The notes below the pieces were generated by a model. The model did no database searches, had not been told where the DNA came from, and was given only the letters and a program-made list of their open reading frames with translations. Positions 969 to 26,787 of a DNA stretch of 64,000 nucleotides are shown here, one piece after another; the first letter of the stretch is position 1; every line of letters begins with the position of its first letter. This stretch comes from Rhizobiaceae bacterium (GTDB taxonomy: Bacteria > Pseudomonadota > Alphaproteobacteria > Rhizobiales > Rhizobiaceae): NCBI GenBank assembly GCA_029212415.1, contig JARGOF010000009.1:80578-144577 (forward strand), read 5' to 3'. The position numbers were made by a program, and so were the translations under genes.

Positions 969-2597
969 ATGACGTTTGCGGAGACATTTGACTACGTCAT
1001 CGTTGGTGCGGGGTCTGCCGGATGTGTTCTGGCAAACCGGCTGAGTGAAGATCCTGAGGTAAGTGTTCTTCTGATCGAAGCCGGTGATTGGGATCGCGAT
1101 CCGATGATCCATATTCCGCTTGGATGGGGCAAGTTGCTGACTGAGCGCCGGCACGACTGGATGTATTTTTGTGAGCCTGAGGACAATGTCGGAGGCCGGC
1201 GTGTCGAATGCGCACGAGGCAAGGTTATCGGGGGGTGTTCGTCAACCAATGCCATGGCCTATGTGCGCGGAAATCCAGGCGATTACGATCGCTGGGCTGA
1301 GCAGGGGCTGACCGATTGGTCCTATGAAAAGACACTGCCGTATTTTCGCAAACAGGAAAATTGGGAAGGCGGCAGTGATCGCTACCGTGGCAATGGCGGC
1401 CCATTGAACGTTCAATTCTGCCGATACAAGGACGCGCTCATCGACGCCTTTGCCGAGGCAAGCAGATCGGCGGGCTTTGACCAGACAGATGATTATAATG
1501 GTGCCCAGCAGGAGGGCTTTGGCCAGTTGCAAATGACCATTGCCAAAGGTCGTCGCAGTTCGACAGCCTCCGCCTATCTGCGTCCTGCCCTGCGTCGCAA
1601 AAACCTCAAGGTTCTGACCAAGGCAATGGCGACAAAAATTCACATTTCAGACGGTCGCGCCACGGGTATCGACTATATGCGTGAAGGATCCTCGCATAGG
1701 GTCTCGGCGCGGCGCGAGGTTTTGCTTGCGGGTGGTGTTATCAATACGCCGCAACTGCTTATGTTGTCGGGTATTGGTGATGGCGAAAAACTGAATGCAC
1801 TGGGCATTGAACCCTTGGTTTCATCACCCGATGTCGGGATGAATCTGCATGATCATGTTTCCGTGATCCTGATGTATCGCCGCAAAAAGCCCGGGCCGTT
1901 TTTAAAGATGATGCGGGCTGATCGCATCGGTCTGGATTTCGCAAAGACCTTTTTGACCGGGCGGGGGTTTTCTGCCGATGTGCCGGGTGGCGTTGTTGCC
2001 TTCCTGAAAACCGATGCCGAGCGCAAGGTACCGGATCTGCAGATATTGTTTACAGCTGCGCCGCTGGCCGCCTGGCCCTATTTTTCTCCCTTCAAGAAAC
2101 CGTTCACCGACGGGTTTGCGACACGTATCGTTGCCGTCCAGCCCGAAAGTCGCGGTTTTGTCGCTCTTGCATCAAGCGACCCGCATGCAGCGCCCCTTAT
2201 CCACCAGAATTTTCTTTCCTCACCGCAGGACTGGGCAACGCTTCGTGCCGGTTTCCGCGTGGCGCGTGAACTGGCCGCCCAGCCGTCCATGGAGCCTTTT
2301 GTCGAAGCCGAGTTTTTCCCCGGCAATGATTGCCAGAGTGACGAAGAAATCGACATGCACATACGCAATACATCCATCACCGTGCATCATCCGGCCGGGA
2401 CATGCCGCATGGGTGTGGATGCTGCTTCCGTGGTCGATCCACAGTTGCGCGTGCGCGGCGTGGATGGCCTCCGTGTGGTTGACGCTTCGGTCATGCCTGA
2501 TCTCGTCAGCGGCAATATCAATGCCGCAGTTATCATGATTGCCGAGAAAGCATCTGACCTGATCCGTTCTCAGGCAGGGCAGCCTGTTGCGGCTTAG
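969..2597 (+). CDS. GMC-family flavin oxidoreductase, candidate 4-pyridoxate dehydrogenase or pyridoxine 4-oxidase
   Basis: A 542-residue protein of normal GMC length. It has the FAD-binding dinucleotide motif [18 protein letters not shown] near residues 8-25, the GMC signature [17 protein letters not shown], and the C-terminal catalytic region [10 protein letters not shown] (about residues 473-482) with GNINAAV near 515. Annotation by homology alone would give choline dehydrogenase. Two steps of B6 catabolism use GMC enzymes: pyridoxine to pyridoxal, and 4-pyridoxate to its 5-formyl derivative (FHMPC). The FHMPC-dehydrogenase-like gene in the same run favours the second, but the sequence alone does not decide. 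No signal peptide is seen. It is the first gene of the plus-strand run and has GntR-type boxes upstream. Confidence 0.8.
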
Positions 2598-2791
2598 GGG
2601 AAGGGTATTTCCAACCAAACAGCTTCGGTTGGCTGTGGATTTTGCTTGGTTGAGTCGGGCGTGAGCAGTCATTTCGCGTGCAGCAATTTTGTAAGCTATT
2701 GAAATTATTTATTAAATATTTTTGGGATTTGCATTATTTCGTGGGTACCCTGCTGCAAATACACAACCAAATGAGTCAATTTCCATGTTTA

Positions 2792-2819
2792 TTGTCTTGA
2801 CAGGCGCAACCAGTATAAT
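2792..2819 (+). promoter_or_regulatory. Candidate sigma70-type promoter for the cupin operon
   Basis: TTGTCT (2792-2797) is separated by 16 bp from a consensus TATAAT (2814-2819), about 48 bp before the cupin start. The -10 box is bracketed by CAACC (2808-2812) and GGTTG (2822-2826), the same half-site core as the boxes upstream of the GMC gene. A repressor bound there would block RNA polymerase. Further GGTTGA-type copies lie around 2609-2653. Confidence 0.5.
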
Positions 2820-2866
2820 ACGGTTGAGTTGGTTTTGAATATTTCCCAGATTCACAGGTGGTTGAT

Positions 2867-4018
2867 ATGTCAGTAAAGCAGACTTCGAATGATGCAATGA
2901 GCAACAAGAAAGCTGCCTTGACCGGCCTGTATGACGATCTCTATTCGAAAAACATGTTTCCTTTCTGGGCGACGTCCGAAGGTGTCGACCACGACGAAGT
3001 CAAACAGCTGATGGCCACGTCGAAGGCCGTGCCTTTCGTCTGGAAATATTCCGACATAGAACCATTGCTGCAGCGGGCCGCGCAATTGGTGACGATGGAT
3101 GACAGTGAGCGCCGGTCGCTCATTTTGTGCAATCCGGGCCTTTCGCCCAAGCGCGCCTCTGTATCGACCATGTATACGGCCTACAGGCTCAACGACCCCG
3201 ACGAAATCATGCCGCCGCACAAACATTCCCCCAGCGCCATTCGCTTCGGGCTGACGGGTGAAGGTAATTTCACCGGTGTGGAAGGTGAGGATGTTGTCTT
3301 CGGACCGGGTGACATGGTTCTGACTCCGAATGATGCCTGGCACAACCATGGCACGGTTGGCGGCGAGCAGGCCGTCAATCTTTCGGTGCTTGATCTGCCG
3401 CTGGTGGAAACCCTGCACGCCGTTCATTTCGATCATAAATATACAGAGATCGAGAATGGCAAGGAAATCGAGAAGAAGGTTCAGACGGCCCGCTACCCTT
3501 CAGATTATTCCCAGAGCATCTATGGCGAAGGCGGCATGATGCCGCGTTTTGTCGATCACAAGCGCGGCGGTGGCCTGTCTTCTCCCATGTGGGTCTATCG
3601 CTGGGAAAAAATGCAGGCACTTCTGGACGCGCACATGGACTGGGACGGCGATCCGCATGAAGGCATTGTCATTGATTATGTCGATCCGACCACAGGTGGC
3701 CCGGTTTTCCAGACGATCAATTTCTATGTGCAGATGTTGCGCCCCGGTGAAAAAACCCTGCCCCAGCGCGAGACGGCCAGCCTGTTGCTGGCGCCATTCC
3801 GTGGCAAGGGACATTCCATCATTGATGGTGAACGCTTCGATTGGAACCAGTTCGATACACTCGCCGTACCCGGTGGATGCTGGGTCGAACATGTCAATGA
3901 TTCGGCAACTGAGCCGGTGATATTCTTTGGGGCCACCGACGCACCGACGCAAAAACATCTGCTTCTCTACAAACGTTATGGTCGCAATCAGGCCGGGGAC
4001 TTGCTCCGTTTCGCCTGA
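2867..4018 (+). CDS. Bicupin ring-cleaving dioxygenase of the gentisate/salicylate 1,2-dioxygenase family
   Basis: A protein of 383 residues, matching the usual 345-390 of this Fe(II) family. The N-terminal cupin carries PPHKHSPSAIRFGLTGEG (H118, H120) and a later histidine in DAWHNHG (H159), the three metal ligands of gentisate dioxygenases. The second cupin holds the family segment LLLAPFRGKGHSIIDG. The ATG at 2867 has AGGTGG five bases before it; an in-frame GTG nine bases upstream lacks a Shine-Dalgarno. These enzymes cleave the C-C bond between a hydroxyl-bearing and a carboxyl-bearing ring carbon. The 3-hydroxy-4-carboxypyridines of B6 degradation have exactly that arrangement, so a role in opening the pyridine ring is plausible. 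No known B6 pathway I can name uses this family. Activity on gentisate is the conventional alternative. Confidence 0.85.
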   Translation: MSVKQTSNDAMSNKKAALTGLYDDLYSKNMFPFWATSEGVDHDEVKQLMATSKAVPFVWKYSDIEPLLQRAAQLVTMDDSERRSLILCNPGLSPKRASVSTMYTAYRLNDPDEIMPPHKHSPSAIRFGLTGEGNFTGVEGEDVVFGPGDMVLTPNDAWHNHGTVGGEQAVNLSVLDLPLVETLHAVHFDHKYTEIENGKEIEKKVQTARYPSDYSQSIYGEGGMMPRFVDHKRGGGLSSPMWVYRWEKMQALLDAHMDWDGDPHEGIVIDYVDPTTGGPVFQTINFYVQMLRPGEKTLPQRETASLLLAPFRGKGHSIIDGERFDWNQFDTLAVPGGCWVEHVNDSATEPVIFFGATDAPTQKHLLLYKRYGRNQAGDLLRFA

Positions 4019-4130
4019 CCGCAGCGCAATTTCAAGACCCGCTCCGCGGGCGCATTTTCCGCGGGGTCGCAAAGCTTCTGCGGGGTTGTGACGGGCTTTA
4101 CCGGCCCCAAGTCAAGAAAGCGAAAATCAA

Positions 4131-5258
4131 TTGGTCAGCGCATTGAACACGAAACTGATCGGACACATCGACTGCCCCGGCGGCGGGCAGGTCTGGGTTG
4201 ACGGAAACATTCTTTATATTGGCCATATGCGCGCGCCAAGCGGCACGACGCTGGTCGATATTGCCGACCCACACAATCCGAAAAAAATATGCACGATAGA
4301 CGTTCCGGTCGGGTGGCACTCGCACAAGGTGCGTGCCAAGGATGGATTGATGATCGTCAACCACGAACGTCTGGGCAATGAGGGTTCGGAAGAGTTCGGC
4401 GGCGGCCTTGCCCTTTACGACACGACACGTCCTTCCGCGCCGAAGCAGATTTCCAAATGGATGACAGGTGGCCGAGGGGTTCATCGCTACGATTATGACG
4501 GACGCTATGCCTTTATTTCACCGACGGCTGAGGGCTATGTCGGCAATATTGTCAAAATCCTGGACCTGATCGACCCTGCCAATCCGGTTGAGGTTGGCAG
4601 TTGGTGGATACCTGGCCAATGGGCGGCAGGCGGCGAGGAATATCCCTGGCACAATTACGTACCGCCGCGCTGCCATCATCCTCTGCGCATGGGCAACAGG
4701 CTCTATGTCAGCTATTGGCATCATGGTTTGTTCATTCTGGACATTTCAGACATGACCAAACCACGCGCCATCGCCCATATGAATTCCAGCCCGAGCTTTC
4801 CGCATCCCACGCATACATGCCTGCCGATTCCGCAATTGCTGAAGGGCAGGAAAATCATGGTGGTTGCCGATGAGGACGTGGCGAAACTCAGGCCATCCCC
4901 GCCGGCATTTACCTGGGTCTATGATATAACGGATGAAACAAATCCGCTGCCGATTTCGACCTTTCAGGTGCCCGGCCTCGATACCGATGGCGCGCCGCAG
5001 CCACCCATGACCGGTTGCCACCAGCCATCCGAGCGATTTGACGGATCAATCATTCCCTTCGCCTGGTTCGCTCAGGGACTGCGACTGGTTGATATTGCTG
5101 ATCCTTTCGCACCGAAGGAAGTGGGGCATTACATGCCCGATGCGCCTGAAGGGGCGGATCGGTCCTCATCCAACGATGTGACCATCGACCATCGCGGCAT
5201 TGTTTACCTGATTGACCGCATTCGCGGTGTCGACATCATCGAAACAAATGTCCTTTAG
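4131..5258 (+). CDS. LVIVD-repeat beta-propeller protein
   Basis: A 375-residue protein built from repeated blades ending in LVDIADPxxPK-like strings: TLVDIADPHNPKKI, KILDLIDPANPVEV, FILDISDMTKPRAI, WVYDITDETNPLPI, LRLVDIADPFAPKEV. This is the LVIVD repeat pattern, usually of extracytoplasmic or scaffold proteins. No signal peptide is evident. The likely start is TTG, since no ATG precedes the first blade, and its ribosome-binding site is weak (AAGAAAGCGA). It lies between the cupin and RidA genes. It contains many His residues (HHPLRMG, HSHKVRA, CHQPSERF) that could bind a metal or a ligand. An enzymatic role in the ring-opening branch (lactonase- or isomerase-like propeller) is possible but not shown. 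Confidence 0.7.
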   Translation: MVSALNTKLIGHIDCPGGGQVWVDGNILYIGHMRAPSGTTLVDIADPHNPKKICTIDVPVGWHSHKVRAKDGLMIVNHERLGNEGSEEFGGGLALYDTTRPSAPKQISKWMTGGRGVHRYDYDGRYAFISPTAEGYVGNIVKILDLIDPANPVEVGSWWIPGQWAAGGEEYPWHNYVPPRCHHPLRMGNRLYVSYWHHGLFILDISDMTKPRAIAHMNSSPSFPHPTHTCLPIPQLLKGRKIMVVADEDVAKLRPSPPAFTWVYDITDETNPLPISTFQVPGLDTDGAPQPPMTGCHQPSERFDGSIIPFAWFAQGLRLVDIADPFAPKEVGHYMPDAPEGADRSSSNDVTIDHRGIVYLIDRIRGVDIIETNVL

Positions 5259-5267
5259 GAGCATGAC

Positions 5268-5678
5268 GTGACAGACGAAGTCAAAAGATCAAAAGCGCAC
5301 TATGCGATCGGCAACAAGAACCCGAATTTGCCATTCCACCCGGCCGTGCGTGCCGGTGATTATATCTTCGTTTCCGGGCAGGTCCCGAAGGACGAAAACA
5401 ACGATGTTATCAGTGGCACGATCGAGGAAGAGACGCTGGCGACCTTGAAAACCATAGAGCGCGTCATTGCCCATGAGGGTGCGACACTTGCCGATATTGT
5501 GCGCATAACGACCTATCTCGAGGATACACGGGATTTCGGGCGCTACAACAGGGCTTTCCAGGCTGGTATCGGCGATGCCGTGCTGGCGCGAACGACCGTC
5601 GAGGCGCGGGCTGTCATCAATACCAAGATCGAAATGGATGCGATCGTTTACCTGCCTCTTTCGGTCGACAAGACCTGA
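5268..5678 (+). CDS. RidA-family (YjgF/YER057c/UK114) enamine/imine deaminase
   Basis: A protein of 136 residues, the single-domain trimeric RidA fold. The typical segments are present: PFHPAVRAGDYIFVSGQVP near the N-terminus, ARTTVEARA with the conserved arginine, and the C-terminal IEMDAIVYLP. A GTG start is used, nine bases after the upstream stop, with AGGAG spaced before it. Family members hydrolyse reactive enamines and imines to ketones plus ammonia. This is apt here because cleaving a hydroxypyridine carbon-carbon bond leaves a C=N or enamine-bearing chain. General detoxification of PLP-enzyme by-products is the alternative role. Confidence 0.85.
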   Translation: MTDEVKRSKAHYAIGNKNPNLPFHPAVRAGDYIFVSGQVPKDENNDVISGTIEEETLATLKTIERVIAHEGATLADIVRITTYLEDTRDFGRYNRAFQAGIGDAVLARTTVEARAVINTKIEMDAIVYLPLSVDKT

Positions 5679-5707
5679 GGCTTTTCAAGATTACGGAGTT
5701 GCAAGAT

Positions 5708-6334
5708 ATGTACAGACTGCTGGGTAGACAAACGTCCGGAAACGTTCAGAAAATTCTCTTCATGCTGGAGGAGATGGGCGCTGATTATGAGCGGGAGGAT
5801 TACGGTCGGATTTTTGAAAACACCCAATCCGCCGAATATAAGAGCATGAACCCGACCTCCAAGGTCCCCACTCTGGTTGATGGGGAAACGGTCGTATGGG
5901 AGTCCAATACGATCCTGCGCTATCTTGCCAATTCAGGGGCCGGTGATCTCACTGGAGCAACAGCCGCTGAAAAGACCCAGGTCGAGCCATGGATGGACTT
6001 CCTTCTGGCTGCAGTGAACCCGGGTTATCTGGCCGCTTTCAAAGGCGCCAAGCTGAGCCCCGAGGAGCATACTGATGCCTACAGGGATCAGGTCAAGGAT
6101 CTGGTGGCTCAACTGACGATCATGGACAGGCATCTCAACGGCAAGGATTATCTTGCATTGGACAAGCTGACGATCGCCGATATTGCCTGTGCCCCCATCG
6201 TCAAGCGTTGCCTTGGTTTCAAGATTGATCGTCCGGCCTTGCCAGCGCTGGAAAGCTGGCTGGGCAAGATGGAGCAACGGCCGGCCATGCAGGCTGCGCT
6301 TGCCCCTGCAGCGCCAGCAAACAAGGTGTCGTAA
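5708..6334 (+). CDS. Glutathione S-transferase
   Basis: A cytosolic GST of 208 residues: an N-terminal thioredoxin-like domain (LGRQTSGNVQKILFMLEE, the PTLVDG cis-proline region, WESNTILRYLA) and an all-helical C-terminal domain with LTIADIACAP. The ATG at 5708 follows ACGGAG by nine bases. Its stop overlaps the next start (TAATG). In gentisate pathways a GST-type isomerase converts the ring-cleavage product, so a cupin dioxygenase and a GST in one run echo that logic. A maleylpyruvate-isomerase-like role on the pyridine cleavage product is inferred. Conjugation of an electrophilic aldehyde intermediate is another option. Confidence 0.85.
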   Translation: MYRLLGRQTSGNVQKILFMLEEMGADYEREDYGRIFENTQSAEYKSMNPTSKVPTLVDGETVVWESNTILRYLANSGAGDLTGATAAEKTQVEPWMDFLLAAVNPGYLAAFKGAKLSPEEHTDAYRDQVKDLVAQLTIMDRHLNGKDYLALDKLTIADIACAPIVKRCLGFKIDRPALPALESWLGKMEQRPAMQAALAPAAPANKVS

Positions 6335-7266
6335 TGACCATTCGCCGGGTTGCACTCATTGGCCTTGGGACGATGGGCCCGGGGATTGCCGCGCGGCTTG
6401 CCTATGGCGGCCTCAACGTTGCTGCCCATGACATCTCGGCGGAAGCAATGGACCGGGCGAAGGGCATGCTTGGGGTTGCCGAGGGTGTTCTTGATCGTCT
6501 TGACATCGAGGCACCGGCGGCGGGCAAAGGCACCGTCGAAATGGTGGACTCTATTGCTGCCGCCGTAGCGGGTGCCGACCTTGTCATCGAGAATGTTCCG
6601 GAAAACCTGGAAATCAAGGCTGCAACCTATCGTGAGATTGATCCTTTGATCGCCTCTGATGTCATTGTCGCCAGTGATACGTCGGGTATCCCCATCAGCA
6701 AGCTGCAGGCGCATATTTCGCATCCCGGTCGCTTTGTCGGGATGCACTGGTCCAATCCGCCGCACATCATACCGATGATCGAGGTCATTGCCGGCGAAAA
6801 GACCGCGCCAGAGACCGTGTCGACCATCCGCGAACTCATCCGCTCGCTGGGACTGCTGCCGGTCGTGGTAAAGAAGGATGTGCCCGGGTTTGTCGAAAAC
6901 CGTGTTCTTTATGCTTTGCTGCGTGAGGCGGTGGATCTCGTTGAGCGTGGTGTGATTGAGCCTGAAGATCTGGATACCTGTGTATCATGGGGGATCGGCT
7001 ACAAGATCGCCGTGATCGGCCCGATGGCGCTGCTCGATATGGCGGGCCTGGATATCTATTCTTCCGTCTCGTCATTTCTCAATGCGGATCTGGCCAATCG
7101 TGATGATGTATCACCGATCATCAAGGCAAAGGCCGAGGCATCCAAACTGGGTATAAAATCGGGTGAAGGCATGTACAGCTATTCACCCAAGGAGATTGGG
7201 GAATTGCAGGTTGACCGTGCCAACAAGCTGATTGCAATCCGGCGTATTCTTGAAGGGCGGGACTGA
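6334..7266 (+). CDS. 3-hydroxyacyl-CoA dehydrogenase-like enzyme, probable FHMPC 5-dehydrogenase of B6 catabolism
   Basis: A 310-residue protein with an N-terminal Rossmann fold (RRVALIGLGTMGPGIAARLA) and the C-terminal helical domain of the family. The catalytic histidine lies in VGMHWSNPPHIIPMIEVI (H138, with partner E150), where fatty-acid enzymes have GMHFFNP. The Mesorhizobium enzyme that oxidises 5-formyl-3-hydroxy-2-methylpyridine-4-carboxylate to the 4,5-dicarboxylate is an unusual member of this family. As I recall it, it shares the TSGIPI, HWSNPPH and VSWGIGYKIAVIGPMALLDM segments. With the pyridoxal-to-pyridoxate genes downstream, this is the best reading. The start overlaps the GST stop by one base, so the genes are translationally coupled. 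Confidence 0.78.
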   Translation: MTIRRVALIGLGTMGPGIAARLAYGGLNVAAHDISAEAMDRAKGMLGVAEGVLDRLDIEAPAAGKGTVEMVDSIAAAVAGADLVIENVPENLEIKAATYREIDPLIASDVIVASDTSGIPISKLQAHISHPGRFVGMHWSNPPHIIPMIEVIAGEKTAPETVSTIRELIRSLGLLPVVVKKDVPGFVENRVLYALLREAVDLVERGVIEPEDLDTCVSWGIGYKIAVIGPMALLDMAGLDIYSSVSSFLNADLANRDDVSPIIKAKAEASKLGIKSGEGMYSYSPKEIGELQVDRANKLIAIRRILEGRD

Positions 7267-7277
7267 GATATGAACGC

Positions 7278-7703
7278 CTATCTGCAGACCATTTTACCAT
7301 TGTCCGCGGCGCATTCCACAAGGCGCGGCGTCGGTACGGCTGATCGGTCGAGCAGCAGGGCAGCGCGGGTTTCATATGCACGGCCGTCTATGCCGCACCA
7401 CAGGCTTTCAACCGCCATTTGCACCTGCTTGTCATTGAGCAGAGAAAATGTGCCGTCCTGCGGGTCGAACCAAAGGTCAACCAATGATTGTGTGCCGGGT
7501 GAAACCGTCGCCAGTTGTGTTGAGTACCAATGGGCCAGATCCGCGTGGCAGGCCATTGGTTCCGTGCCTTTGTTGGCAACGGACAATGGGGCATTGATCA
7601 ATCCTTCGGTCCCGGTCTTGACTTTGATGGGGCGCAGTTCAACCGCATTTGCCGACCCGGCAAACATAACAATCGTCATAAACAAGCAACAGGAGAATTT
7701 CAC
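7278..7703 (-). CDS. Small periplasmic protein of unknown function
   Basis: A 141-residue protein with a clear signal peptide (MKFSCCLFMTIVMFAGSANA, cleavage after ANA). The mature chain of about 121 residues has four cysteines, enough for two disulfides, near positions 52, 103, 129 and 140. I do not recognise a domain. The start is GTG with GAGG seven bases upstream. It lies in the opposite direction between the FHMPC-dehydrogenase-like gene and the BMP-type importer, so it splits two plus-strand operons and is read separately. The signal peptide argues that it is real rather than a shadow frame. A link to B6 uptake is only positional. Confidence 0.6.
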   Translation of the reverse strand: MKFSCCLFMTIVMFAGSANAVELRPIKVKTGTEGLINAPLSVANKGTEPMACHADLAHWYSTQLATVSPGTQSLVDLWFDPQDGTFSLLNDKQVQMAVESLWCGIDGRAYETRAALLLDRSAVPTPRLVECAADNGKMVCR

Positions 7704-7797
7704 GGGAATGCCTCATCCAAGAAAGCCGAATGGCTCAAAGCTGATGAGATCATAGAGCAGGAATAATCATATTCAAACTGCCAATATGGAGGCTACA

Positions 7798-8826
7798 ATG
7801 AGAAAATACATTACACCAACGTTAAGCGCCATCCTTCTATCGGGCTGGATGCTTGGAAGTGCGGTTTCAGCAGAGGTCAAATCGATTGCGATCCTGACAC
7901 CTGAAGAAGGCACCGACTACGGCTGGAATCAGCAGGGTGTCGATGCAGCCAAGGCAGCAGCGAAAGCAGCTGGTATTGAAGTCATCGTGGCGCAGGGGCT
8001 GGGCTATGGAGACGTGCGTCCGACGCTTCGCGAACTGGCTGAAGAAGGCGCAAGCCTGATGATCGCCCATGCCAGTGGCTACAACACGGCAGCACCGGAA
8101 ATTGCCAATGAACTCAATGTTCCGGTCGCTATTGTTGATACACCATCGGCACTGAAAGCAGGACTGATTGGCGACTATACGCTGTCGGGCCATCAGGGCG
8201 CCTATCTTGCCGGTCGCATGGCCGCCAAAATGAGCCGTACAAACACCGTCGGTATCGTCGTATCCGGTGAGCCACCCTCATGGAACTCGCAGTCAGCCGG
8301 TTTCGCGCAGGGCGTCAAGGCAGAGAATGCCGATACCAAGGTCATCTATGCGGTGATTGGGCCGGCAGCCTATAGCGATGCAGCCGGTGGCAAGCGTGTG
8401 ACAGAAAGTGTGATTGCCGCTGGTGCGGACATCATCTTTGGTCAGGGTAATGGTTCGAGCTTCGGCATGCTGCAGGCTGTTGAAACGACCAAGGCTGTCG
8501 ATGGCGGCAAAGTGCTGTTCATTGATGTCATCGGCGACAAGTCACCGATTGACAAGGGTTTCCTTCTGTCTTCGGTCGTCTGGAACATTGAGCCTGTCTA
8601 CACGGCCATGATCAATGATCTGAAAGCCGATACCTATGGTACAAAGAGCTATGCCATCGGACTTGAGGACGATTCTGTCATGCTTTTGAAAACACCTCAG
8701 ATTCCGGACAATGTCTGGAGCGACGTGCAGGCACTGCGTGACGATGTCATCTCCGGCAAGATTCCCGTGGAACCCGTCTTCGATGCGACGGCTGTTCGCG
8801 CCCTGATGGGCGACGTGAAGGAATAG
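7798..8826 (+). CDS. BMP-family ABC transporter substrate-binding protein
   Basis: A 342-residue periplasmic protein. The signal peptide ends in VSA before EVKSIAILTPEEGTDYGWNQQG; the D-x-G-W/F-N-Q pattern near the N-terminus is typical of BMP (PnrA/Med) ligand-binding proteins. The ATG at 7798 has GGAGG five bases before it; an in-frame ATG at 7786 overlaps that ribosome-binding site. It is not a lipoprotein, since no lipobox cysteine is present. BMP proteins usually bind purine nucleosides or similar small heterocycles. Lying between two blocks of B6-degradation genes, it is a good candidate for binding pyridoxine, pyridoxamine or pyridoxal. It is the first gene of a complete importer operon. 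Confidence 0.85.
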   Translation: MRKYITPTLSAILLSGWMLGSAVSAEVKSIAILTPEEGTDYGWNQQGVDAAKAAAKAAGIEVIVAQGLGYGDVRPTLRELAEEGASLMIAHASGYNTAAPEIANELNVPVAIVDTPSALKAGLIGDYTLSGHQGAYLAGRMAAKMSRTNTVGIVVSGEPPSWNSQSAGFAQGVKAENADTKVIYAVIGPAAYSDAAGGKRVTESVIAAGADIIFGQGNGSSFGMLQAVETTKAVDGGKVLFIDVIGDKSPIDKGFLLSSVVWNIEPVYTAMINDLKADTYGTKSYAIGLEDDSVMLLKTPQIPDNVWSDVQALRDDVISGKIPVEPVFDATAVRALMGDVKE

Positions 8827-8836
8827 TTCATTGAGG

Positions 8837-8860
8837 GGAGGGGCGGTTTGCTGCCCCTCC
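8837..8860 (+). terminator. Intercistronic hairpin after the BMP binding-protein gene
   Basis: GGAGGGGC (8837-8844) and GCCCCTCC (8853-8860) form a perfect 8-bp stem with an 8-nt loop. No T-run follows, so it is more likely an mRNA-stabilising or partially terminating structure. Such a structure would let the binding protein be made in excess over the membrane components. Confidence 0.6.
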
Positions 8861-8891
8861 TGACGTCTTACTGCATATTTTGGAGTTGATC

Positions 8892-10463
8892 TTGGTACCT
8901 CCCAGCGCGTCAAATCAGGCCGAACAGCCGGCTATCATCTCCTTGGAGGGTGTTACCAAGCGGTTCCCTGGTGTGATTGCCAACGATAGTGTCAACCTGG
9001 AAATCCGACCTGGAGAGGTTCATGTCCTGCTCGGCGAAAACGGCGCGGGCAAGTCAACGCTGATTGGCATGCTGTCGGGACTTCAGCAACCTGATGCCGG
9101 TCGGATATTGATTGATGGCAAGCCAACACCCATCCTGTCGCCGCGTCATGCGCTTTCCCTGGGCATTGGCACCGTCTTTCAACATGCCATGCTTGTTCCG
9201 GGTTTGACAGTCGCGGAAAACCTTCTGCTGGGCGAACCCTGGTGGCGGCTTCCGAAAAAAGAAGCTTTGCGTGAAAAAGTAACGGCGCTTGCTGACTCCC
9301 TTGGGGTGCGCATTGATCTCGATGCCGTCGCTTCACAACTTTCACTGGGCGAACAACAATTTGTAGAAATCCTGCGCGCGCTGCTGCGCGACAGTCGCGT
9401 GCTGATCCTTGATGAATCCACATCCATGCTCACGCCATCGGGTGTCGAGGAACTGGGCGCTTTGATGCGCCGTCTGGTCGAGCGTGGCCTGGCGATCGTC
9501 TTTATTACCCACAAGCTGCGCGAGGCTGCCGCGTTTGGCGATCGCATATCGGTGCTGAAACTCGGCCGCAAGGTCAGTGAGATTTCGCCCGAACGCTTCC
9601 GCAGCGTGGGCGAGGACGAACTCATCGGTGAAATCGTTGAAGCCATGTTTGGCAAGCAGCATGATGATCCGGACGCGGCAAACCGCAGCCCGAATATCTT
9701 TCCCGTTGAGACGCCAGCAATTCTGTCCGTTGACAATCTCACCCTTGCACCCAGCGCCACAACGCCAGGGCTGGCAGGCATATCCTTTGAATTGCGGCCA
9801 GGCGAACTTTTGGGGATCGCCGGTATTGACGGCAATGGGCAAAAGCAATTGGCGGAGGTCCTTTCCGGACAGGAAAAGGCTTCAGGCGGCAGGATATTGC
9901 TGGAGAACCGGCCGATCGAAAGGCTTTCTGTCGGCGAGCGCCGTGACCTTGGGTTGCGCTATCTGACCGATGACCGGCTTGGTGAGGGGACGGTTGGCAC
10001 TTTCGCCGTATCGGTCAATTTTCTGCTGAAGCAGATTGACCACCCGCCTTTCTGGAAAAAGGGCATTGAACAAAGCGGCCTTATTGAGCGGCATGCGGTG
10101 CAGCTGATGAGTGAATATGATGTGCGTGCTCCAGGCAGTCAAACGCCAGTTGGGCGGCTGTCGGGAGGCAATATCCAGAAAGTGCTGCTGGCGCGCGAAC
10201 TGGCCGGAGGCGCAAAGGTGGTGATTTTCAACAAGCCGACCTATGGGCTCGATCTGGCCAATACATTGGCGATCCGACAGCGTATCCTGGATATTGCCGC
10301 AGAGGGAAAAGGTGTTTTGTTGATCTCTACAGACCTGGAAGAACTGCTTGGAATTTGTGATCGTATTGCCGTGATGGACGCCGGTAAATTGACCGGTATC
10401 GTGGACAATAGTCCTACAGCGCGCACAGATGTCGGACGACTGATGATCGGACTGGCAGCATGA
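8892..10463 (+). CDS. ABC transporter ATP-binding protein, tandem nucleotide-binding domains (BMP/sugar class)
   Basis: Two ABC domains in one chain of 523 residues. The first is complete: Walker A LLGENGAGKSTLIGML, signature LSLGEQQFVEILRAL, Walker B VLILDEST. The second has a degenerate Walker A (GIAGIDGNGQKQLAE), signature LSGGNIQKVLLAREL and a non-canonical Walker B (VVIFNKPTYGLD). This asymmetric design is usual for RbsA/YufO-type importers. The start is probably TTG at 8892, with GGAG six bases ahead; earlier TTG codons overlap that site. Its stop overlaps the permease start (ATGA). It powers the BMP-type importer, whose likely substrate is a B6 vitamer, by location only. Confidence 0.87.
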   Translation: MVPPSASNQAEQPAIISLEGVTKRFPGVIANDSVNLEIRPGEVHVLLGENGAGKSTLIGMLSGLQQPDAGRILIDGKPTPILSPRHALSLGIGTVFQHAMLVPGLTVAENLLLGEPWWRLPKKEALREKVTALADSLGVRIDLDAVASQLSLGEQQFVEILRALLRDSRVLILDESTSMLTPSGVEELGALMRRLVERGLAIVFITHKLREAAAFGDRISVLKLGRKVSEISPERFRSVGEDELIGEIVEAMFGKQHDDPDAANRSPNIFPVETPAILSVDNLTLAPSATTPGLAGISFELRPGELLGIAGIDGNGQKQLAEVLSGQEKASGGRILLENRPIERLSVGERRDLGLRYLTDDRLGEGTVGTFAVSVNFLLKQIDHPPFWKKGIEQSGLIERHAVQLMSEYDVRAPGSQTPVGRLSGGNIQKVLLARELAGGAKVVIFNKPTYGLDLANTLAIRQRILDIAAEGKGVLLISTDLEELLGICDRIAVMDAGKLTGIVDNSPTARTDVGRLMIGLAA

Positions 10464-11545
10464 GCAGTGAAACGGGGTCCGCAACCCATGGGCAGATGCC
10501 TTTGAAAAAACCGGGAAGCGCCATCGCACACAGGCTTGTCCTGACAATCGGGCCGATCCTGATTGCGCTGATCCTGGGTGGTCTCATTCTTCTGGCGCTG
10601 GGCGTCGATCCGATAAAATATTATGGTTACGTGATCCAGCGCGGATTGCTGTCGCCCACCGGCATCCAGCAGACTCTGACCCGCATGGCGCCACTTCTGT
10701 TCCTGGCCGCCGGTCTCATCGTTGCCTTTCGTGCCGGTGTATGGAACCTTGGTGCCGACGGACAATTTCTTCTCGCCGCAGTGATCGCGGCGGCAAGTGC
10801 GCCCTATCTGGCGGATTTCATGCCATCCTGGCTTGCGGTGATCATCGCGTTCGTGCTGTCGACAGCCGTTGCGGTCATCTGGTCGCTGGTGCCGGCCCTG
10901 CTGCGGGCCTATCAGGGCGTCAATGAAATCATCACGACCCTGATGATGACGTTCCTCGGCGTATCGCTTGCCAATGTGCTGGTGAAGCTGGTGTTTCTCG
11001 ATCCGTCAACGACCGTTCCGCAGACCCGTACCCTGCCGGTGGCGGATCGGCTGCCGCGCCTGTTTGATACGACCATCAGCAGCGGACTCATTTTCGGGCT
11101 GATTGCCATCGTCGCCGTGCATCTGATGATGACCCGCACGGCATTCGGCCTGAAGCTGCGCATTGTCGGCGCCAATACACGCGCAGCGATCCATTCCGGT
11201 CTCAGTGTGCCGCATTTGACGGTTGCCGTCTTTGCCCTATCGGCCGGCTTGTGTGGCATGGCCGGCGCCATCGATATTCTCGGCGTGCAGGGCAATGTGC
11301 GCGCTGACTGGAATCCCGCTTACGGTCTGACTGTCATTCCGATGGTCTTTCTTGCGCGGTTCAACGGGTTTGCTTCCATAGCCTTTGTGCTGCTTTTGTC
11401 GGTGCTTTCCATTGGTGGGGAAAGTGCTGCCAGGCGTCTGGGTGTTCCGACAGTCTTTACCCTTTTGCTGGTCGCCATTGTTCTGATCGTCCTGGCGATT
11501 GCGGAATATATCGACCACCGTCACAACCAGGCTGCAAAGGCATGA
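10460..11545 (+). CDS. ABC transporter permease 1 (BMP-type importer)
   Basis: A 361-residue inner-membrane protein with about eight to ten hydrophobic segments and the branched-chain/ribose permease fold. A short cytoplasmic N-terminus precedes the first segment (VLTIGPILIALILGGLILLAL). The stretch YQGVNEIITTLMM is the coupling region typical of the larger permease in BMP-type systems, and ALRAYQ/GVNE residues contact the ATPase. It overlaps the ATPase stop by four bases, which implies translational coupling. It forms a heterodimeric channel with the next gene product. Confidence 0.85.
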   Translation: MSSETGSATHGQMPLKKPGSAIAHRLVLTIGPILIALILGGLILLALGVDPIKYYGYVIQRGLLSPTGIQQTLTRMAPLLFLAAGLIVAFRAGVWNLGADGQFLLAAVIAAASAPYLADFMPSWLAVIIAFVLSTAVAVIWSLVPALLRAYQGVNEIITTLMMTFLGVSLANVLVKLVFLDPSTTVPQTRTLPVADRLPRLFDTTISSGLIFGLIAIVAVHLMMTRTAFGLKLRIVGANTRAAIHSGLSVPHLTVAVFALSAGLCGMAGAIDILGVQGNVRADWNPAYGLTVIPMVFLARFNGFASIAFVLLLSVLSIGGESAARRLGVPTVFTLLLVAIVLIVLAIAEYIDHRHNQAAKA

Positions 11546-11549
11546 GGCG

Positions 11550-12485
11550 ATGAGTGACCTTTTCAGTGATGTATTCCTCGGCGCGCTGTTCTTTGGCGCC
11601 GTAACAGCTGCGATCCCGCTGCTTCTGGCGGGACTTGGCGAACAGATGTCCGAAAAGGCTGGCGTGCTGAATATCGGCATTGAAGGCATGATGATTGCCG
11701 GGGCCTATGCAGGCTTTCTTGGCGCCTACTACTCGGAATCTTTGTGGCTCGGATTTGCTACCGGTGCTTTCGGCGGCATTGTCGTTGCCTCTATCATGGT
11801 CTTGCTGTGTGTTCGTTTTGGGCTCAATCAGATTGTCATCGGCATTGGGCTTACACTCGGGTTTGAAGGGCTGACGGCGCTGCTGCATCATTTCCAGTTT
11901 TCACGTACCTATCCGCGCCTTCCCGCAGCCGATGTCACAGTCGTGCCCTATCTGTCCGACATTCCGATCCTTGGGCCGGCGTTGTTCAAGCATCACCTTG
12001 TTGTCTATCTGGCTGTTTTGCTGGTTTTCGTGCTGGCCTTCGTTTATCGGCGCATGCAACTGGGCCTCAATCTGCAGGCTGCCGGCGACAAGCCCGCTGC
12101 GCTTGACGTGGCGGGGGTCGATGTGGTGCGTACGCGCGCATTTGCCGTCTTCACAACAGGCGCACTGGCAGGACTGGGCGGCGCCTATCTGGCAAATATC
12201 GGTGCCGGTATCTTTGTCCCCTTTATCACAAATGGCGCCGGTTTCCTGGGTATTGTCCTGGCCATGCTGGCGCGTGGACGACCGTTCTGGGTGCTTTGCG
12301 GTGCCCTGCTGTTCGGTGTGTGTCTGTCGCTCACGACCGCGCTTCAGGTCGCCGGCATCAATATACCCACCGATGTGATCCAGATGATCCCTTTCCTTGC
12401 CGTCATGGCGATGCTGATCATGTTTGGGCGCAAATCGAGTCTGCCAGCGGCGCTGGGAATACCCTATGAGCGGGGGGCACGCTGA
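11550..12485 (+). CDS. ABC transporter permease 2 (BMP-type importer)
   Basis: A 311-residue multi-spanning permease. It has the signature AGLGEQMSEKAGVLNIGIEG near the N-terminus, which marks the second, shorter permease of BMP-type importers, and GLNLQAAGDKPAALDVAGVD as the coupling helix. The ATG at 11550 lies five bases after the preceding stop. A longer in-frame reading starts 51 bases earlier inside the first permease and has no ribosome-binding site. It ends the transporter block; the B6 enzyme genes follow after about 57 bases. Confidence 0.85.
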   Translation: MSDLFSDVFLGALFFGAVTAAIPLLLAGLGEQMSEKAGVLNIGIEGMMIAGAYAGFLGAYYSESLWLGFATGAFGGIVVASIMVLLCVRFGLNQIVIGIGLTLGFEGLTALLHHFQFSRTYPRLPAADVTVVPYLSDIPILGPALFKHHLVVYLAVLLVFVLAFVYRRMQLGLNLQAAGDKPAALDVAGVDVVRTRAFAVFTTGALAGLGGAYLANIGAGIFVPFITNGAGFLGIVLAMLARGRPFWVLCGALLFGVCLSLTTALQVAGINIPTDVIQMIPFLAVMAMLIMFGRKSSLPAALGIPYERGAR

Positions 12486-13349
<864 letters not shown>

Positions 13350-13371
13350 TCCCGGTTTTAAGGAGATTTTC

Positions 13372-14550
13372 ATGCGTTATCCAAATGATACGGAACCGGT
13401 CATCACGCTGACCTCGGGGCCCGTCAACGCCTATGCTGATGTGCTTCGCGGTCTCAGCCGCACCGTCCTTTACGACTATGATCCGGCTTTTCAGTTGTTC
13501 TATGAAAAGACCGTCGAAAAATGCCAGGCGGCCATGCGGCTGTCGACAAAGCCGGTCATCCTGCAGGGAGAGCCGGTTTTGGGACTGGAGGCGGCTGCCG
13601 CCTCGCTGATTGCGCCCGGGGACACGGTGCTCAATCTGGCCTCAGGCGTCTACGGCAAAGGGTTTGGCTATTGGGCCAAACGCTATTCGCCCAACCTGCT
13701 TGAGATTGAAACAGCCTACAATGAGGCGATTGATCCGCAAGCCGTCGCCGACATGCTGAAGGCCCATCCCGAAATCAGCGTGGTCGCGGTCTGCCACCAC
13801 GACACACCTTCAGGCACCATCAATCCGATCAATGAAATCGGGGCTTTGGTTGCGGCTCACGGTGCCTATCTGATTGTCGATGCGGTCTCGTCCTTCGGCG
13901 GCATGAACACCCATCCCGAGGATTGCCAGGCGGATATTTATGTGACCGGGCCCAACAAGTGCCTGGGCGCACCACCCGGACTTACCATGTTGGGCGTCAG
14001 CCCACGGGCCTGGGAAAAGATGAAGGCCAACAATGCCGCGCCGCGCGCCTCGATGCTGAGTATCCTCGACTGGGAGAATGCCTGGTCGAAGGAGGAACCT
14101 TTTCCATTCACGCCCTCGGTGGCTGAAATGAATGGTCTGGATGTGGCGCTGGACCTCTATTTGAATGAGGGGCCTGAAAATGTCTGGGAGCGACACGCAT
14201 TGACGGCAAAGGCCACACGGGTCGGCGCTGTTGCGATGGGGCTGTCGCTTTGGGCTGCCAGTGAATCCATTGCCTCACCTACGACAACGGCTGTCCGCAC
14301 GCCGCAGGGCATTGACGAGAACAGCCTGCGCCAGACGGCGCGAGGCCACTACGGTGTGGTGTTTTCTTCCGGTCGCGGTGAGACAATGGGCAAACTCACC
14401 CGTATCGGACATATGGGGCCAACAGCACAGCCGATCTATTCCATTGCCGCATTGACGGCCTATGGCGGGGCGCTGAATGCGCTTGGCCATCGGGTGGACA
14501 TCGGCAAGGGAATAGATGCGGCAATGGCCGTGATAGACGCTGCAGCGTGA
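13372..14550 (+). CDS. ppaT: Pyridoxamine-pyruvate aminotransferase
   Basis: A 392-residue class V (fold type I) aminotransferase that converts pyridoxamine plus pyruvate to pyridoxal plus alanine, using the B6 vitamer as substrate rather than as a fixed cofactor. The substrate-binding lysine is K196 in VTGPNKCLGAPPGLTM and the ring-nitrogen aspartate is D170 in IVDAVSSFGG. The M. loti enzyme has the equivalent lysine at 197. The segments LTSGPVNAYADVLRGLSRTV and FSSGRGETMGKLTRIGHMG also match it. It sits 22 bases after the lactonase with AAGGAG before the ATG. A serine-glyoxylate-type aminotransferase would be the generic annotation. Confidence 0.93.
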   Translation: MRYPNDTEPVITLTSGPVNAYADVLRGLSRTVLYDYDPAFQLFYEKTVEKCQAAMRLSTKPVILQGEPVLGLEAAAASLIAPGDTVLNLASGVYGKGFGYWAKRYSPNLLEIETAYNEAIDPQAVADMLKAHPEISVVAVCHHDTPSGTINPINEIGALVAAHGAYLIVDAVSSFGGMNTHPEDCQADIYVTGPNKCLGAPPGLTMLGVSPRAWEKMKANNAAPRASMLSILDWENAWSKEEPFPFTPSVAEMNGLDVALDLYLNEGPENVWERHALTAKATRVGAVAMGLSLWAASESIASPTTTAVRTPQGIDENSLRQTARGHYGVVFSSGRGETMGKLTRIGHMGPTAQPIYSIAALTAYGGALNALGHRVDIGKGIDAAMAVIDAAA

Positions 14551-14567
14551 CACAATAAAATTCATAA

Positions 14568-15326
<759 letters not shown>

Positions 15327-15625
15327 AGGGGTTTGTCATTAATGTTAGTCATTTGATGGCGGAAAATCGGTCCAGTCAGCAAGGCGCGTCGCGATGTGCT
15401 TCATCGGGCAAGCGGGGTAACGACGCTGATGGGCCGATTTTTCCACTTCAACAGGCAGCATTGTTGAAATTCAACGAAGAATGGGCCGGATGAATTTTGT
15501 CCGCCGGCGCCATTGACCTGCGCTTTTGGCAGTTAGAAACCTTGGCGCGCAATCCGCCTGACCGGTGGCCTTGGCGTTCCTGAGCACGCCTTGGCGCAAT
15601 TTTATCCTGGCAGTTATATACCGAT
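15327..15625. other. Intergenic region between convergent B6 and inositol blocks
   Basis: No credible gene is visible. GGAAAATCGGTCC (15361-15373) is nearly an inverted copy of GGGCCGATTTTTCC (15431-15444), so about 84 bases can fold into a long stem with a structured loop. It could end transcription from the B6 side or be a small RNA. CCTTGGCG recurs three times between about 15540 and 15598. Neither has an assigned function. Confidence 0.5.
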
Positions 15626-16405
15626 TTAGACTGTGCCGCCCAGCGAGCCTTCCAATTGCGCCATTTCCTGACCGCCAGCCATCAGGTCCTGCAACTCTTC
15701 TGGCGTGATGTGCCCACGATCTGCAGTGCCAAGCGTTTTGCCACGGTTGAGAACCGTGAAGCGGTCGCCAATGGCCATCGCGTGGCGCACATTGTGGGTG
15801 ATGAAGACAACCGCAATGCCTTGTTTGCGCACCCTGTCGACTGTTGCCAAAACGTTGGCTGTCTGCCGAACGCCCAGAGCCGACGTGGGTTCATCGAGAA
15901 TAAGCACCTTTGCGCCGAAATGAACAGCGCGGGCAATCGCAACCGTTTGGCGTTCGCCGCCCGAGAGGGTTCCGACGGCCTGGTCTGCGCCACGCAGGTT
16001 GATACCCATTTGCTTCATTTCTTCCATTGTCACGCGATCTGCGTGATCCTTGTCATAGAATGAAATGCCGGCAATTTTTTTGGTCGGTTCATTTCCCATG
16101 AAAAAATTGCGAGACACGCTCATAAGCGGGATCATGGCGAGATCCTGATAGACGGTTGCAATGCCGGCGGCGATTGCATCGCGCGGATTTTCAAAGTTCA
16201 TGACCTCGCCTTCGAACTGGATCGTCCCCGCGGTCGGCTTGTGCACACCGGACATGGTTTTGATGAAGGTGGACTTGCCGGCGCCATTGTCACCAAGCAG
16301 GCAATGGCATTCACCGGGAAAGACCTCCAGTGTGACACCGGCAAGTGCGATGACGGAACCGAAGTGCTTTTCAATATTTTCCATGCGGATGATCGGATCA
16401 GCCAT
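15626..16405 (-). CDS. Sugar-type ABC transporter ATP-binding protein (likely inositol)
   Basis: A single ABC domain of 259 residues: Walker A LLGDNGAGKSTFIKTM, signature LSGGERQTVAIARAV, Walker B VLILDEPTSALG, and switch histidine in VVFITHN. The single-domain form is typical of the FrcA class, unlike the fused RbsA form. Its ATG follows the permease stop with one base between (TGAGATG), so the two are coupled. It is last of three genes (binding protein, permease, ATPase) beside inositol-catabolic genes, and probably energises inositol uptake. The substrate is inferred from context. Confidence 0.85.
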   Translation of the reverse strand: MADPIIRMENIEKHFGSVIALAGVTLEVFPGECHCLLGDNGAGKSTFIKTMSGVHKPTAGTIQFEGEVMNFENPRDAIAAGIATVYQDLAMIPLMSVSRNFFMGNEPTKKIAGISFYDKDHADRVTMEEMKQMGINLRGADQAVGTLSGGERQTVAIARAVHFGAKVLILDEPTSALGVRQTANVLATVDRVRKQGIAVVFITHNVRHAMAIGDRFTVLNRGKTLGTADRGHITPEELQDLMAGGQEMAQLEGSLGGTV

Positions 16406-16406
16406 C

Positions 16407-17528
16407 TCAGCGCTCCCCGGTGATAATGCGGCGGATGTAAGTGTTCAGGATCACCGCAAAAAGAAGAATGACGCCGAGGAATACACGGAACAGAGAATTT
16501 TCCACACCGGCGAAAAACAGGCCCTGTTGCACCACGCCGAAAATCAGCGCGCCCAGTGCGGCGCCGAGCACTGACCCGTAGCCGCCGGTCAGAAGTGCGC
16601 CGCCGATAACCACGGCAATGATGGCTTCGAACTCTTTAAGCAAGCCACGTCCGGCATCCGCTGACCCGAACTCCATAACCTGACAGGTCGCGAATACGGT
16701 CGCACAGAAGGCGGTAAACATGAACATGAGCACTTTGACGCGGTTTACAGGAACACCGACATAACGCGCTGCCTGCGCGTCGCCGCCGGCTGCAAATATC
16801 CAGTTGCCGAATTTTGTTTTGGTCAACAGCACATGGCCGAAAATGATCAATGCGACCGCCCAGACGATCAACATGGGAATACCATCGACCAGCGGTTGCC
16901 CGGCCCGTGAACCGTTTTGGAAGGTGCCGATGATTCCAACATCGCCCATCCACTGGAAAAATCCTTTGAGGACTTTGCCACCGAAGACAGGTGCCAACCA
17001 GTCGTCCTCGGCAAATGCTTTGATGCCGCCAATCGTTGTCTTGCGTTCAATTGCCTGCGGCAGATAAATCGAAAAGCCGCGCAGAATGAAGAGAAATGCA
17101 AGCGTTACAATAAAGCTCGGCAATCCTGTTTTGACGACGACGTAACCGTTGATCGCACCAATGGTGATACATACGGCAAACGTGACCAATATGGCCAACC
17201 ATACGGGCCATTCCAGCGAAACCACAAAGATGGCGATGATCATACTGGCAAAGCCGATCATCGAGCCTACCGAGAGATCAAACTCGCCGGCAATCATCAA
17301 AAGACAGGCGCCAACGGCAATGACTGCGAACTGAGCCGATACAATTGACCAGTTCATCACGCCCTGGCTGTTGAACATGCCACTGTCATGGGCAACGAGC
17401 AGAAAGACAGTGAATACGGCGATTGTTCCTATTATACCACCAAGCTCAGGACGGATCAGTGCTTTTCTGAATGACGAAATTTCCTTGACGCGTTCGTCGT
17501 TGGCAGGCGCTTGCGCAGTATCATTCAT
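16407..17528 (-). CDS. Sugar-type ABC transporter permease (likely inositol)
   Basis: A 373-residue inner-membrane protein of the RbsC/FrcC permease family. A hydrophilic N-terminus of about 25 residues precedes roughly nine to ten hydrophobic segments. Family stretches include AGEFDLSVGSMIGF near residue 105, GLPSFIVTLAFLFILRG, and the coupling loop AAGGDAQAARYVGVPVNRVK. A long periplasmic loop around the TTIGGIKAFAEDDWLAPVFGG segment is common in FrcC proteins. It is transcribed after the binding protein, across an intercistronic terminator-like hairpin. Confidence 0.85.
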   Translation of the reverse strand: MNDTAQAPANDERVKEISSFRKALIRPELGGIIGTIAVFTVFLLVAHDSGMFNSQGVMNWSIVSAQFAVIAVGACLLMIAGEFDLSVGSMIGFASMIIAIFVVSLEWPVWLAILVTFAVCITIGAINGYVVVKTGLPSFIVTLAFLFILRGFSIYLPQAIERKTTIGGIKAFAEDDWLAPVFGGKVLKGFFQWMGDVGIIGTFQNGSRAGQPLVDGIPMLIVWAVALIIFGHVLLTKTKFGNWIFAAGGDAQAARYVGVPVNRVKVLMFMFTAFCATVFATCQVMEFGSADAGRGLLKEFEAIIAVVIGGALLTGGYGSVLGAALGALIFGVVQQGLFFAGVENSLFRVFLGVILLFAVILNTYIRRIITGER

Positions 17529-17562
17529 GGCGCGTTCCCTTGAATTGTCGGTTCATGTAAAC

Positions 17563-17592
17563 GAAAAAAGGGCGCCATGATTTCCGGCGCCC
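17563..17592 (-). terminator. Rho-independent terminator/attenuator between binding-protein and permease genes
   Basis: On the minus strand GGGCGCC and GGCGCCC form a perfect 7-bp stem with a 9-nt loop, followed at once by six T residues. It stands 14 bases after the binding-protein stop and 35 before the permease start. Partial read-through here would make far more binding protein than permease. Confidence 0.8.
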
Positions 17593-17606
17593 CCATTCCA
17601 ATTTAC

Positions 17607-18548: not shown

Positions 18549-18632
18549 GAATTCCTCCCAGGAACGTCAAATTTCAGCGGAAATGATGGCCAATCCATCT
18601 TTCCGTATTTCAGAAAATCACATGAAGGAGAA

Positions 18633-18652
18633 TTTTGCAACCGGTTGCAAAA
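18633..18652. promoter_or_regulatory. LacI-family operator 1
   Basis: TTTTGCAACCGGTTGCAAAA is a perfect 20-bp palindrome with the central CG expected of LacI/GalR operators. It lies between the divergent importer operon and the LacI-type gene. An almost identical copy stands at 22959-22976, so the local regulator probably binds both. Confidence 0.85.
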
Positions 18653-18708
18653 ATTTTTACGATTGCGCTATGATCACAAACACGGCTATGCACAAATGAC
18701 AGTAGCGG

Positions 18709-19722: not shown

Positions 19723-19723
19723 A

Positions 19724-20881: not shown

Positions 20882-20892
20882 TCTGGTTTTCC

Positions 20893-21786: not shown

Positions 21787-21816
21787 GCAAATGACCTTTC
21801 AATTCAGGCGCCCCGG

Positions 21817-22935: not shown

Positions 22936-22958
22936 TTTCGCTTTCGTGTCAGATTCAG

Positions 22959-24950: not shown

Positions 24951-24951
24951 G

Positions 24952-26777: not shown

Positions 26778-26787
26778 GAGAAACGAT

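Follow-up and report, generated by a model that had tools for sequence, protein, structure and literature searches.

How does a bacterium equipped for the breakdown of vitamin B6 open the pyridine ring if the genes known for that step are missing from its genome? The question is raised by a 64,000-nucleotide stretch of contig JARGOF010000009.1 from a Rhizobiaceae bacterium, here called the window, in which the plus-strand region 969-15326 is a B6-degradation cluster. The upper pathway is encoded as far as 3-hydroxy-2-methylpyridine-4,5-dicarboxylate (HMPDC), with the 4-pyridoxate dehydrogenase step assigned from position and similarity alone. An initial annotation of the interval 2867-7266 had named a bicupin dioxygenase, a RidA protein, a glutathione S-transferase (GST), and an FHMPC dehydrogenase, and had proposed from them a new ring-opening branch. 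All four genes are present there on the plus strand, but the annotation overlooked an LVIVD-repeat gene (4131-5258) that proved to be the most constant partner of the cupin. Its statement that the run holds neither the decarboxylase nor the flavin oxygenase of the classical route was borne out, as a tblastn search of the window at 1e-5 found none of MHPCO, HMPDC decarboxylase, and AAMS hydrolase. B6 catabolism has been described as the best understood of the cofactor catabolic pathways (PMC3538738).

We consider it reasonably probable, from comparative sequence analysis, that the window encodes a second B6 ring-opening branch, in which a cupin module would act on HMPDC instead of the classical enzyme set. 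The proposed ring-opening enzyme, a bicupin dioxygenase of the gentisate 1,2-dioxygenase/salicylate 1,2-dioxygenase (GDO/SDO) superfamily, is encoded at 2858-4018, with an ATG also possible at 2867. After 112 bp follows the LVIVD-repeat beta-propeller, a proposed hydrolase (PF08309, TTG start), then, after 9 bp, a Rid-family protein (RidA; 5268-5678, PF01042) proposed to be an enamine/imine hydrolase, and, after a further 20 bp, a GST-like protein (5699-6334, Pfam GST_N/GST_C). The GST gene overlaps by one base the gene for FHMPC 5-dehydrogenase (6334-7266), which scores 547 bits against NF042925 (cut-off 500) and 509 bits against PDB entry 4om8.

Two kinds of B6 cluster

Among 297 genomes of the order, 11 encode FHMPC dehydrogenase, and their loci, the window being the eleventh, split into two kinds. 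In the four classical loci (L012, L013, L015, and L017), a GMC oxidoreductase gene adjoins that for FHMPC dehydrogenase. Before the GMC gene, L013 encodes AAMS hydrolase (492 bits to 3kxp), MHPCO (838 bits to 3alj), and HMPDC decarboxylase (465 bits to 2z7b), and the other three loci have matching open reading frames (ORFs). The cupin kind comprises the window, L014, L016, L019, L020, L021, and genome G120, in which two contigs (L027 and L018) share the cluster. Its gene order is GMC, cupin, LVIVD, RidA, GST, FHMPC dehydrogenase, with extra ORFs between RidA and GST in L019 and L021; those in L019 encode a TAXI-type TRAP binding protein and a fused permease.

The classical clusters also contain two genes, at L013:6386-6976 (PF06684) and 6995-7453 (PF01161, PEBP), with counterparts in all four loci. 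We know of no role for either in the published B6 pathway. Homologues of the PF06684 gene (43-44% identity) occur in two cupin loci as well, L106 and L107.

Searches for the three classical enzymes, run on the 11 genomes with FHMPC dehydrogenase, follow the same division. Orthologues of MHPCO (86-100% identity) are limited to the four classical genomes, the other genomes giving 27-37% with E-values no better than 2.5e-26. The decarboxylase is found at 74-100% in the classical genomes, at 25-29% in six others, and at 38% in the genome of the window; AAMS hydrolase is found at 76-100% in the classical genomes, with best matches of 26-34% elsewhere. A cupin orthologue (70-100% identity) occurs in seven of the 297 genomes, exactly the remaining seven of the 11, and the next cupins stand at 35-38%. 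In the genome of the window itself, where the initial annotation had left room for a classical cluster elsewhere, the search found none: best matches were 29% for MHPCO, 38% over 225 residues for the decarboxylase, and 27% for AAMS hydrolase, and a classical gene set outside the window was set aside as an explanation.

A second sample, 146 genomes of a genus inferred to be Mesorhizobium, gave the same picture at larger scale. FHMPC dehydrogenase is present in 56 genomes, MHPCO in 34, and the cupin in 22; the latter two sets do not overlap, and their union is the 56. Each of the FHMPC-dehydrogenase genomes sampled from order and genus thus has either the cupin module or the classical genes, and never both. 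The chance figure for this disjointness, 5e-16 in the genus, ignores shared descent, so figures of that kind overstate the evidence. We nevertheless regard it as strongly indicated by these distributions that, in genomes with FHMPC dehydrogenase, the module replaces the classical ring-opening genes. Chance adjacency of the module to B6 genes was set aside on the cupin distribution over the 297 genomes together with its conservation across the 80 loci described below. A plasmid collection contained no cupin orthologue, as its best match reached only 39% identity, and no FHMPC dehydrogenase at 1e-60.

The cupin and its substrate pocket

By sequence the cupin is GDO/SDO-like, and a profile of the module cupin alignment (A1) aligns with GDO (3bu7) and SDO (2phd). 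Its structural model (pLDDT 78) has the bicupin fold, with 3bu7, 2phd, and 2d40 as top Foldseek matches, at 26-30% identity to the GDO/SDO structures. It falls well below the curated cut-offs for the gentisate and salicylate enzymes, however, with 210 against 442 bits for TIGR02272 and 202 against 650 bits for NF049978. The module cupins form a clade apart from the outgroups with UFBoot support of 100 in IQ-TREE and local support of only 0.67 in FastTree on the same alignment. Of the 14 outgroup cupins, half came from the order search and half from plasmid records.

According to a study of SDO, the iron ligands are His119, His121, and His160, and the substrate contacts are Arg83, Gln108, Arg127, His162, Trp172, and Asp174, reported as strictly conserved in known GDOs (PMC11264262). 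The iron site is preserved as H121, H123, and H162 in all 81 module cupins, aligned to the three SDO ligands, and the ring-opening enzyme of the module is probably iron-dependent. Equally invariant are R85, R129, and H164, which correspond to SDO Arg83, Arg127, and His162. Where SDO has Gln108, Trp172, and Asp174, however, all 81 have Arg110, Asn174, and Ser176, while the outgroup cupins keep the Gln in 13 of 14 and the Trp and Asp in 14 of 14. We infer that the cupin retains the chelation of an ortho-hydroxy carboxylate, with the rest of the pocket changed and one positive charge added. Such a pocket would suit HMPDC, because that compound bears a second carboxylate. The retained carboxylate-binding residues are thus compatible with the salicylate-like substrate suggested in the initial annotation.

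Since the best characterized relatives of the cupin are gentisate and salicylate dioxygenases, the module might instead degrade an unrelated gentisate-like benzenoid and merely neighbor the B6 genes. We regard this as very improbable. It is at odds with the exact partition against MHPCO and with the loss of the Gln, Trp, and Asp residues that GDOs strictly conserve; moreover, the module includes a Rid deaminase, while fumarylacetoacetate hydrolase, which stands beside several outgroup cupins, is absent. An ordinary gentisate pathway as a neighbor was set aside on the partition and the pocket changes.

The pocket bears also on a second alternative, in which an unrecognized decarboxylase, either a class II aldolase paralogue encoded elsewhere or the LVIVD protein, takes off the 4-carboxylate before the cupin cleaves the resulting classical intermediate, HMPC. 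This is improbable, though less so than a benzenoid substrate. HMPC has no carboxylate beside its 3-hydroxyl group, yet the cupin keeps all three carboxylate-binding residues of SDO. Candidates for such a decarboxylase do exist. The genome of the window encodes a class II aldolase-type paralogue, the 38% match mentioned above (C63:36949-37632, L116:8423-9148), but next to its gene is a TAXI-TRAP transporter, and reading by eye of the ORFs listed around it revealed no B6 gene. Across 66 genomes with the cupin (L074 and 13 of the 80 loci described below were left out of this search), paralogues of 36-45% identity occur in 24 at 1e-30, and the other 42 have no decarboxylase match at that threshold.

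One further cupin may be recorded here, at L127:5968-7065 on a Paraburkholderia plasmid. It is 39% identical to the cupin of the window, carries Ser at the Gln108 position and Ala at that of Gly106, adjoins a dienelactone hydrolase gene, and represents another unusual relative of the GDOs.

Partner proteins, proposed chemistry, and the wider set of loci

Under the preferred reading, an Fe(II) cupin would bind HMPDC through its 3-hydroxyl and 4-carboxylate groups, as salicylate is bound in SDO, with Arg110 perhaps gripping the 5-carboxylate, and would insert O2 between C3 and C4 of the undecarboxylated ring. This cleavage is predicted to yield an N-alkenyl pyruvate imine, HOOC-C(CH3)=N-CH=C(COOH)-CO-COOH. 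The LVIVD propeller, probably a metal-dependent hydrolase, and/or RidA would hydrolyze this imine to pyruvate and aminomethylene-oxaloacetate, and RidA would set ammonia free. With release of CO2 and formate, the resulting formyl-oxaloacetate would then become the second pyruvate, so that the eight carbons are accounted for as 3+3+1+1. Cleavage of HMPDC by the cupin at C3-C4 is the best fit to the evidence, with substrate, bond, and products deduced from gene content and residues. On balance we lean towards a third known B6 ring-opening route, in which cupin, LVIVD, and Rid proteins would yield two pyruvates, formate, CO2, and ammonia rather than succinic semialdehyde and acetate. To our knowledge, ring opening of an HMPDC-type pyridine has not previously been demonstrated for a cupin.

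Each partner was compared with characterized proteins. The model of the LVIVD propeller (pLDDT 88) has as its top fold match 5hrm, a haloalkylphosphorus hydrolase (E 9e-17, TM 0.70), and the only significant PDB matches of its sequence profile are 5hrm and 5ioj, at 6e-10 and 1e-9. Haloalkylphosphorus hydrolase has a binuclear metal center. Many His, Asp, and Glu residues are invariant in the LVIVD alignment, and the propeller is likely to be a hydrolase.

RidA lies below the cut-off of TIGR00004 (64 against 106 bits). Its Arg108, which we take to be equivalent to Arg105 of the Escherichia coli protein, is found in 72 of 72 aligned sequences and aligns with Arg117 of 2-aminomuconate deaminase (AmnE, 6izh). 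The profile places AmnE second best of 49 PDB sequences, and AmnE is its nearest characterized catabolic relative there, which favors the enamine/imine hydrolase role assigned in the initial annotation. AmnE is reported to deaminate the ring-fission enamine 2-aminomuconate with release of ammonia (PMC6742747), and the conserved Rid arginine is described as important (PMC4433059).

The GST protein has Ser13 and Asn15 in 66 of 66 aligned sequences and Thr12 in 65 of 66, but reaches no curated GST model; its score against the maleylacetoacetate isomerase model (maiA) is 42 bits, where 171 are required. The isomerization of the chain that had been suggested for it is, as a consequence, a weak part of the original proposal, the more so as GST and RidA are both missing from two of the loci described next. 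What stands of that proposal is a branch distinct from the classical one, on the strength of the mutual exclusivity and of the loci that combine the cupin with FHMPC dehydrogenase.

When the GTDB genome collection was searched with alignment A1, 80 loci (L036-L115) were kept of 99 candidates. These partly overlap the order and genus genomes (for example, G015 is L055, and G209 is L041), and some of the fetched spans end at contig ends. Homologues of the cupin are found together with B6 genes. The LVIVD gene is present in 80 of 80 loci; it directly follows the cupin in 74, and in six FHMPC dehydrogenase lies between the two. Within the fetched spans, RidA is found in 72 loci, GST in 69, GMC in 65, FHMPC dehydrogenase in 55, and the BMP-type transporter protein in 47; in many, FHMPC dehydrogenase is the next gene after GST. 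None of the 80 has a match of at least 50% identity to MHPCO, the decarboxylase, or AAMS hydrolase. Fifty-four loci span 21 kb or more; of these, 39 are complete for the six genes, 11 are without FHMPC dehydrogenase, one is without GMC, two have only cupin, LVIVD, and FHMPC dehydrogenase, and one has cupin, LVIVD, and RidA only.

Several observations weigh against the preferred reading. RidA and GST are missing from the fetched span in eight loci, some of them cut by contig ends, but in L098 and L104, each of 21 kb, cupin, LVIVD, and FHMPC dehydrogenase are kept while RidA and GST are absent. In one Pseudolabrys metagenome-assembled genome (L093, G445:C187), the module coexists with a 76% MHPCO homologue that contains one in-frame stop; other MHPCO matches in the 66 genomes are eight at 41-50%. 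The decarboxylase paralogues already described belong here too. Related genomes in the genus counts are not independent, as the module is inherited among them. Finally, for the 25 cupin loci whose span lacks FHMPC dehydrogenase, whole-genome searches found the enzyme over the cut-off in two genomes and as a divergent copy (377-385 bits) in two; of the remaining 21, 12 have only paralogues of 211-238 bits and nine have none. Because these 21 of 25 genomes have no orthologue, the module is not strictly tied to FHMPC dehydrogenase. The initial annotation finds support in the 55 of 80 loci with FHMPC dehydrogenase in the span, but it had not considered these 21 genomes.

The same genomes lend some weight to the possibility that the cupin acts earlier, on 4-pyridoxate or FHMPC, with the GMC enzyme and FHMPC dehydrogenase working in parallel or on side products. 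Both compounds bear a 3-hydroxyl group beside a 4-carboxylate, and 65 of 80 loci retain GMC. An earlier substrate is unlikely in our view, though the least unlikely of the three alternatives, given that FHMPC dehydrogenase is present in 22 of 22 cupin genomes of the genus and often directly follows GST. Three Burkholderiales loci also speak against it. In one, from Pandoraea (L109), FHMPC dehydrogenase is missing and the neighbors of GMC include genes for an aldehyde dehydrogenase (494 bits) and for an NMT1-type ABC transporter, which also favors the preferred reading, and in the other two (L111 and L113) a conserved ORF matching that aldehyde dehydrogenase stands beside GMC. Bacteria of the L109 type may import 4-pyridoxate itself and oxidize the aldehyde with another enzyme.

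Two further features of the cupin loci were recorded. Near the module in L098, genes for a beta-keto acid cleavage enzyme (PF05853) and for hydantoinase A/B lie at 8173-9063 and 14138-20114, possibly representing alternative downstream steps. An operator-like inverted repeat, CAACCA-N9-GGTTGA, lies upstream of the cupin gene in the window (2807-2827, plus strand). The pattern CAACCA-N8..11-GGTTGA has this one match in the window, has at least one match in six of 100 shuffles, recurs in 35 of the 80 loci at a site shortly before the cupin gene, and has no match in the four classical loci. As many of the loci are closely related, we read this as no more than moderate evidence that the module has an operator of its own.

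If the textbook ring-opening steps give way to other enzymes in about two-fifths (22 of 56) of the FHMPC-dehydrogenase genomes of the genus, then annotation of the pathway, predictions of its products, and models of growth are partly wrong for these bacteria. Under the preferred reading, a cupin clade and an LVIVD propeller that are now orphans would gain assigned roles, giving the LVIVD clade a function, and the altered cupin pocket would let dioxygenase specificity be viewed as a natural experiment. No publication linking a cupin to the breakdown of B6 was found among the matches listed from the open-licence PubMed Central literature, which, with only that literature and the matches listed covered, is weak evidence of novelty.

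The remaining cluster and comparison with known systems

Upstream of the module, the GMC oxidoreductase gene (969-2597, plus strand) likely encodes 4-pyridoxate dehydrogenase, to judge by position and similarity. This assignment rests on the gene order in Mesorhizobium loti. The gene is 77-79% identical to the GMC gene adjoining FHMPC dehydrogenase in the four classical clusters; NCBIfam places its product in the choline dehydrogenase subfamily, and its top PDB match is a choline dehydrogenase. Divergent from it, an FCD-type GntR regulator is encoded at 1-636 on the minus strand, its 3' end lying just beyond the window. This gene (ORF L133:7937-8614) is 64% identical by tblastn to the GntR gene of L020, and FCD and GntR domains were found in that relative.

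Downstream, all on the plus strand, a BMP-type B6 ABC transporter spans 7786-12485, with a binding protein (7786-8826; 502 bits to NF047927, cut-off 400), an ATPase (8880-10463), and permeases (10460-11545 and 11499-12485), the parts other than the binding protein being assigned by position and conservation. There follow 4-pyridoxolactonase (12537-13349; 493 bits to NF047925, cut-off 325), pyridoxamine-pyruvate transaminase (13372-14550; 645 bits to NF046070, cut-off 600), and pyridoxal 4-dehydrogenase (14580-15326; 438 bits to 3ndr/3nug, the next best at 174 bits). Antisense between FHMPC dehydrogenase and the transporter lies a 141-residue ORF (7278-7703, minus strand) with a signal-peptide-like start; ORFs at this place in L012, L013, L014, L018, L019, and L020, from both kinds of cluster, are about 32-86% identical to one another. 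Beyond the cluster, by eye, an ABC transporter and a LacI regulator (15626-19722) precede myo-inositol catabolism-like genes (iolD, iolC, iolB, iolE, and iolG-like, about 19724-29462), judged from their translations.

Set against characterized systems, the cupin has in common with salicylate 1,2-dioxygenase (2phd) and gentisate 1,2-dioxygenase (3bu7) the bicupin fold, the three-His iron site, and the Arg/Arg/His carboxylate residues, but differs from them at the three substituted pocket positions and in its separate clade. RidA shares with AmnE an ARTTV motif that includes the conserved Arg, whereas its neighborhood has the cupin and no extradiol dioxygenase. For the LVIVD propeller, the haloalkylphosphorus hydrolase of Sphingobium sp. 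TCM1 (5hrm, 5ioj) is the best fold match and a distant sequence relative, but identity is 18% and the cupin loci offer no phosphotriester context. Pathway I of M. loti MAFF303099, the MHPCO route, shares with the window the transaminase, pyridoxal dehydrogenase, lactonase, FHMPC dehydrogenase, and GMC enzymes, but the genome of the window lacks orthologues of its HMPDC decarboxylase, MHPCO, and AAMS hydrolase. The layout differs as well: the classical ring-opening genes precede GMC, whereas in the window the cupin, LVIVD, RidA, and GST genes are inserted between GMC and FHMPC dehydrogenase.

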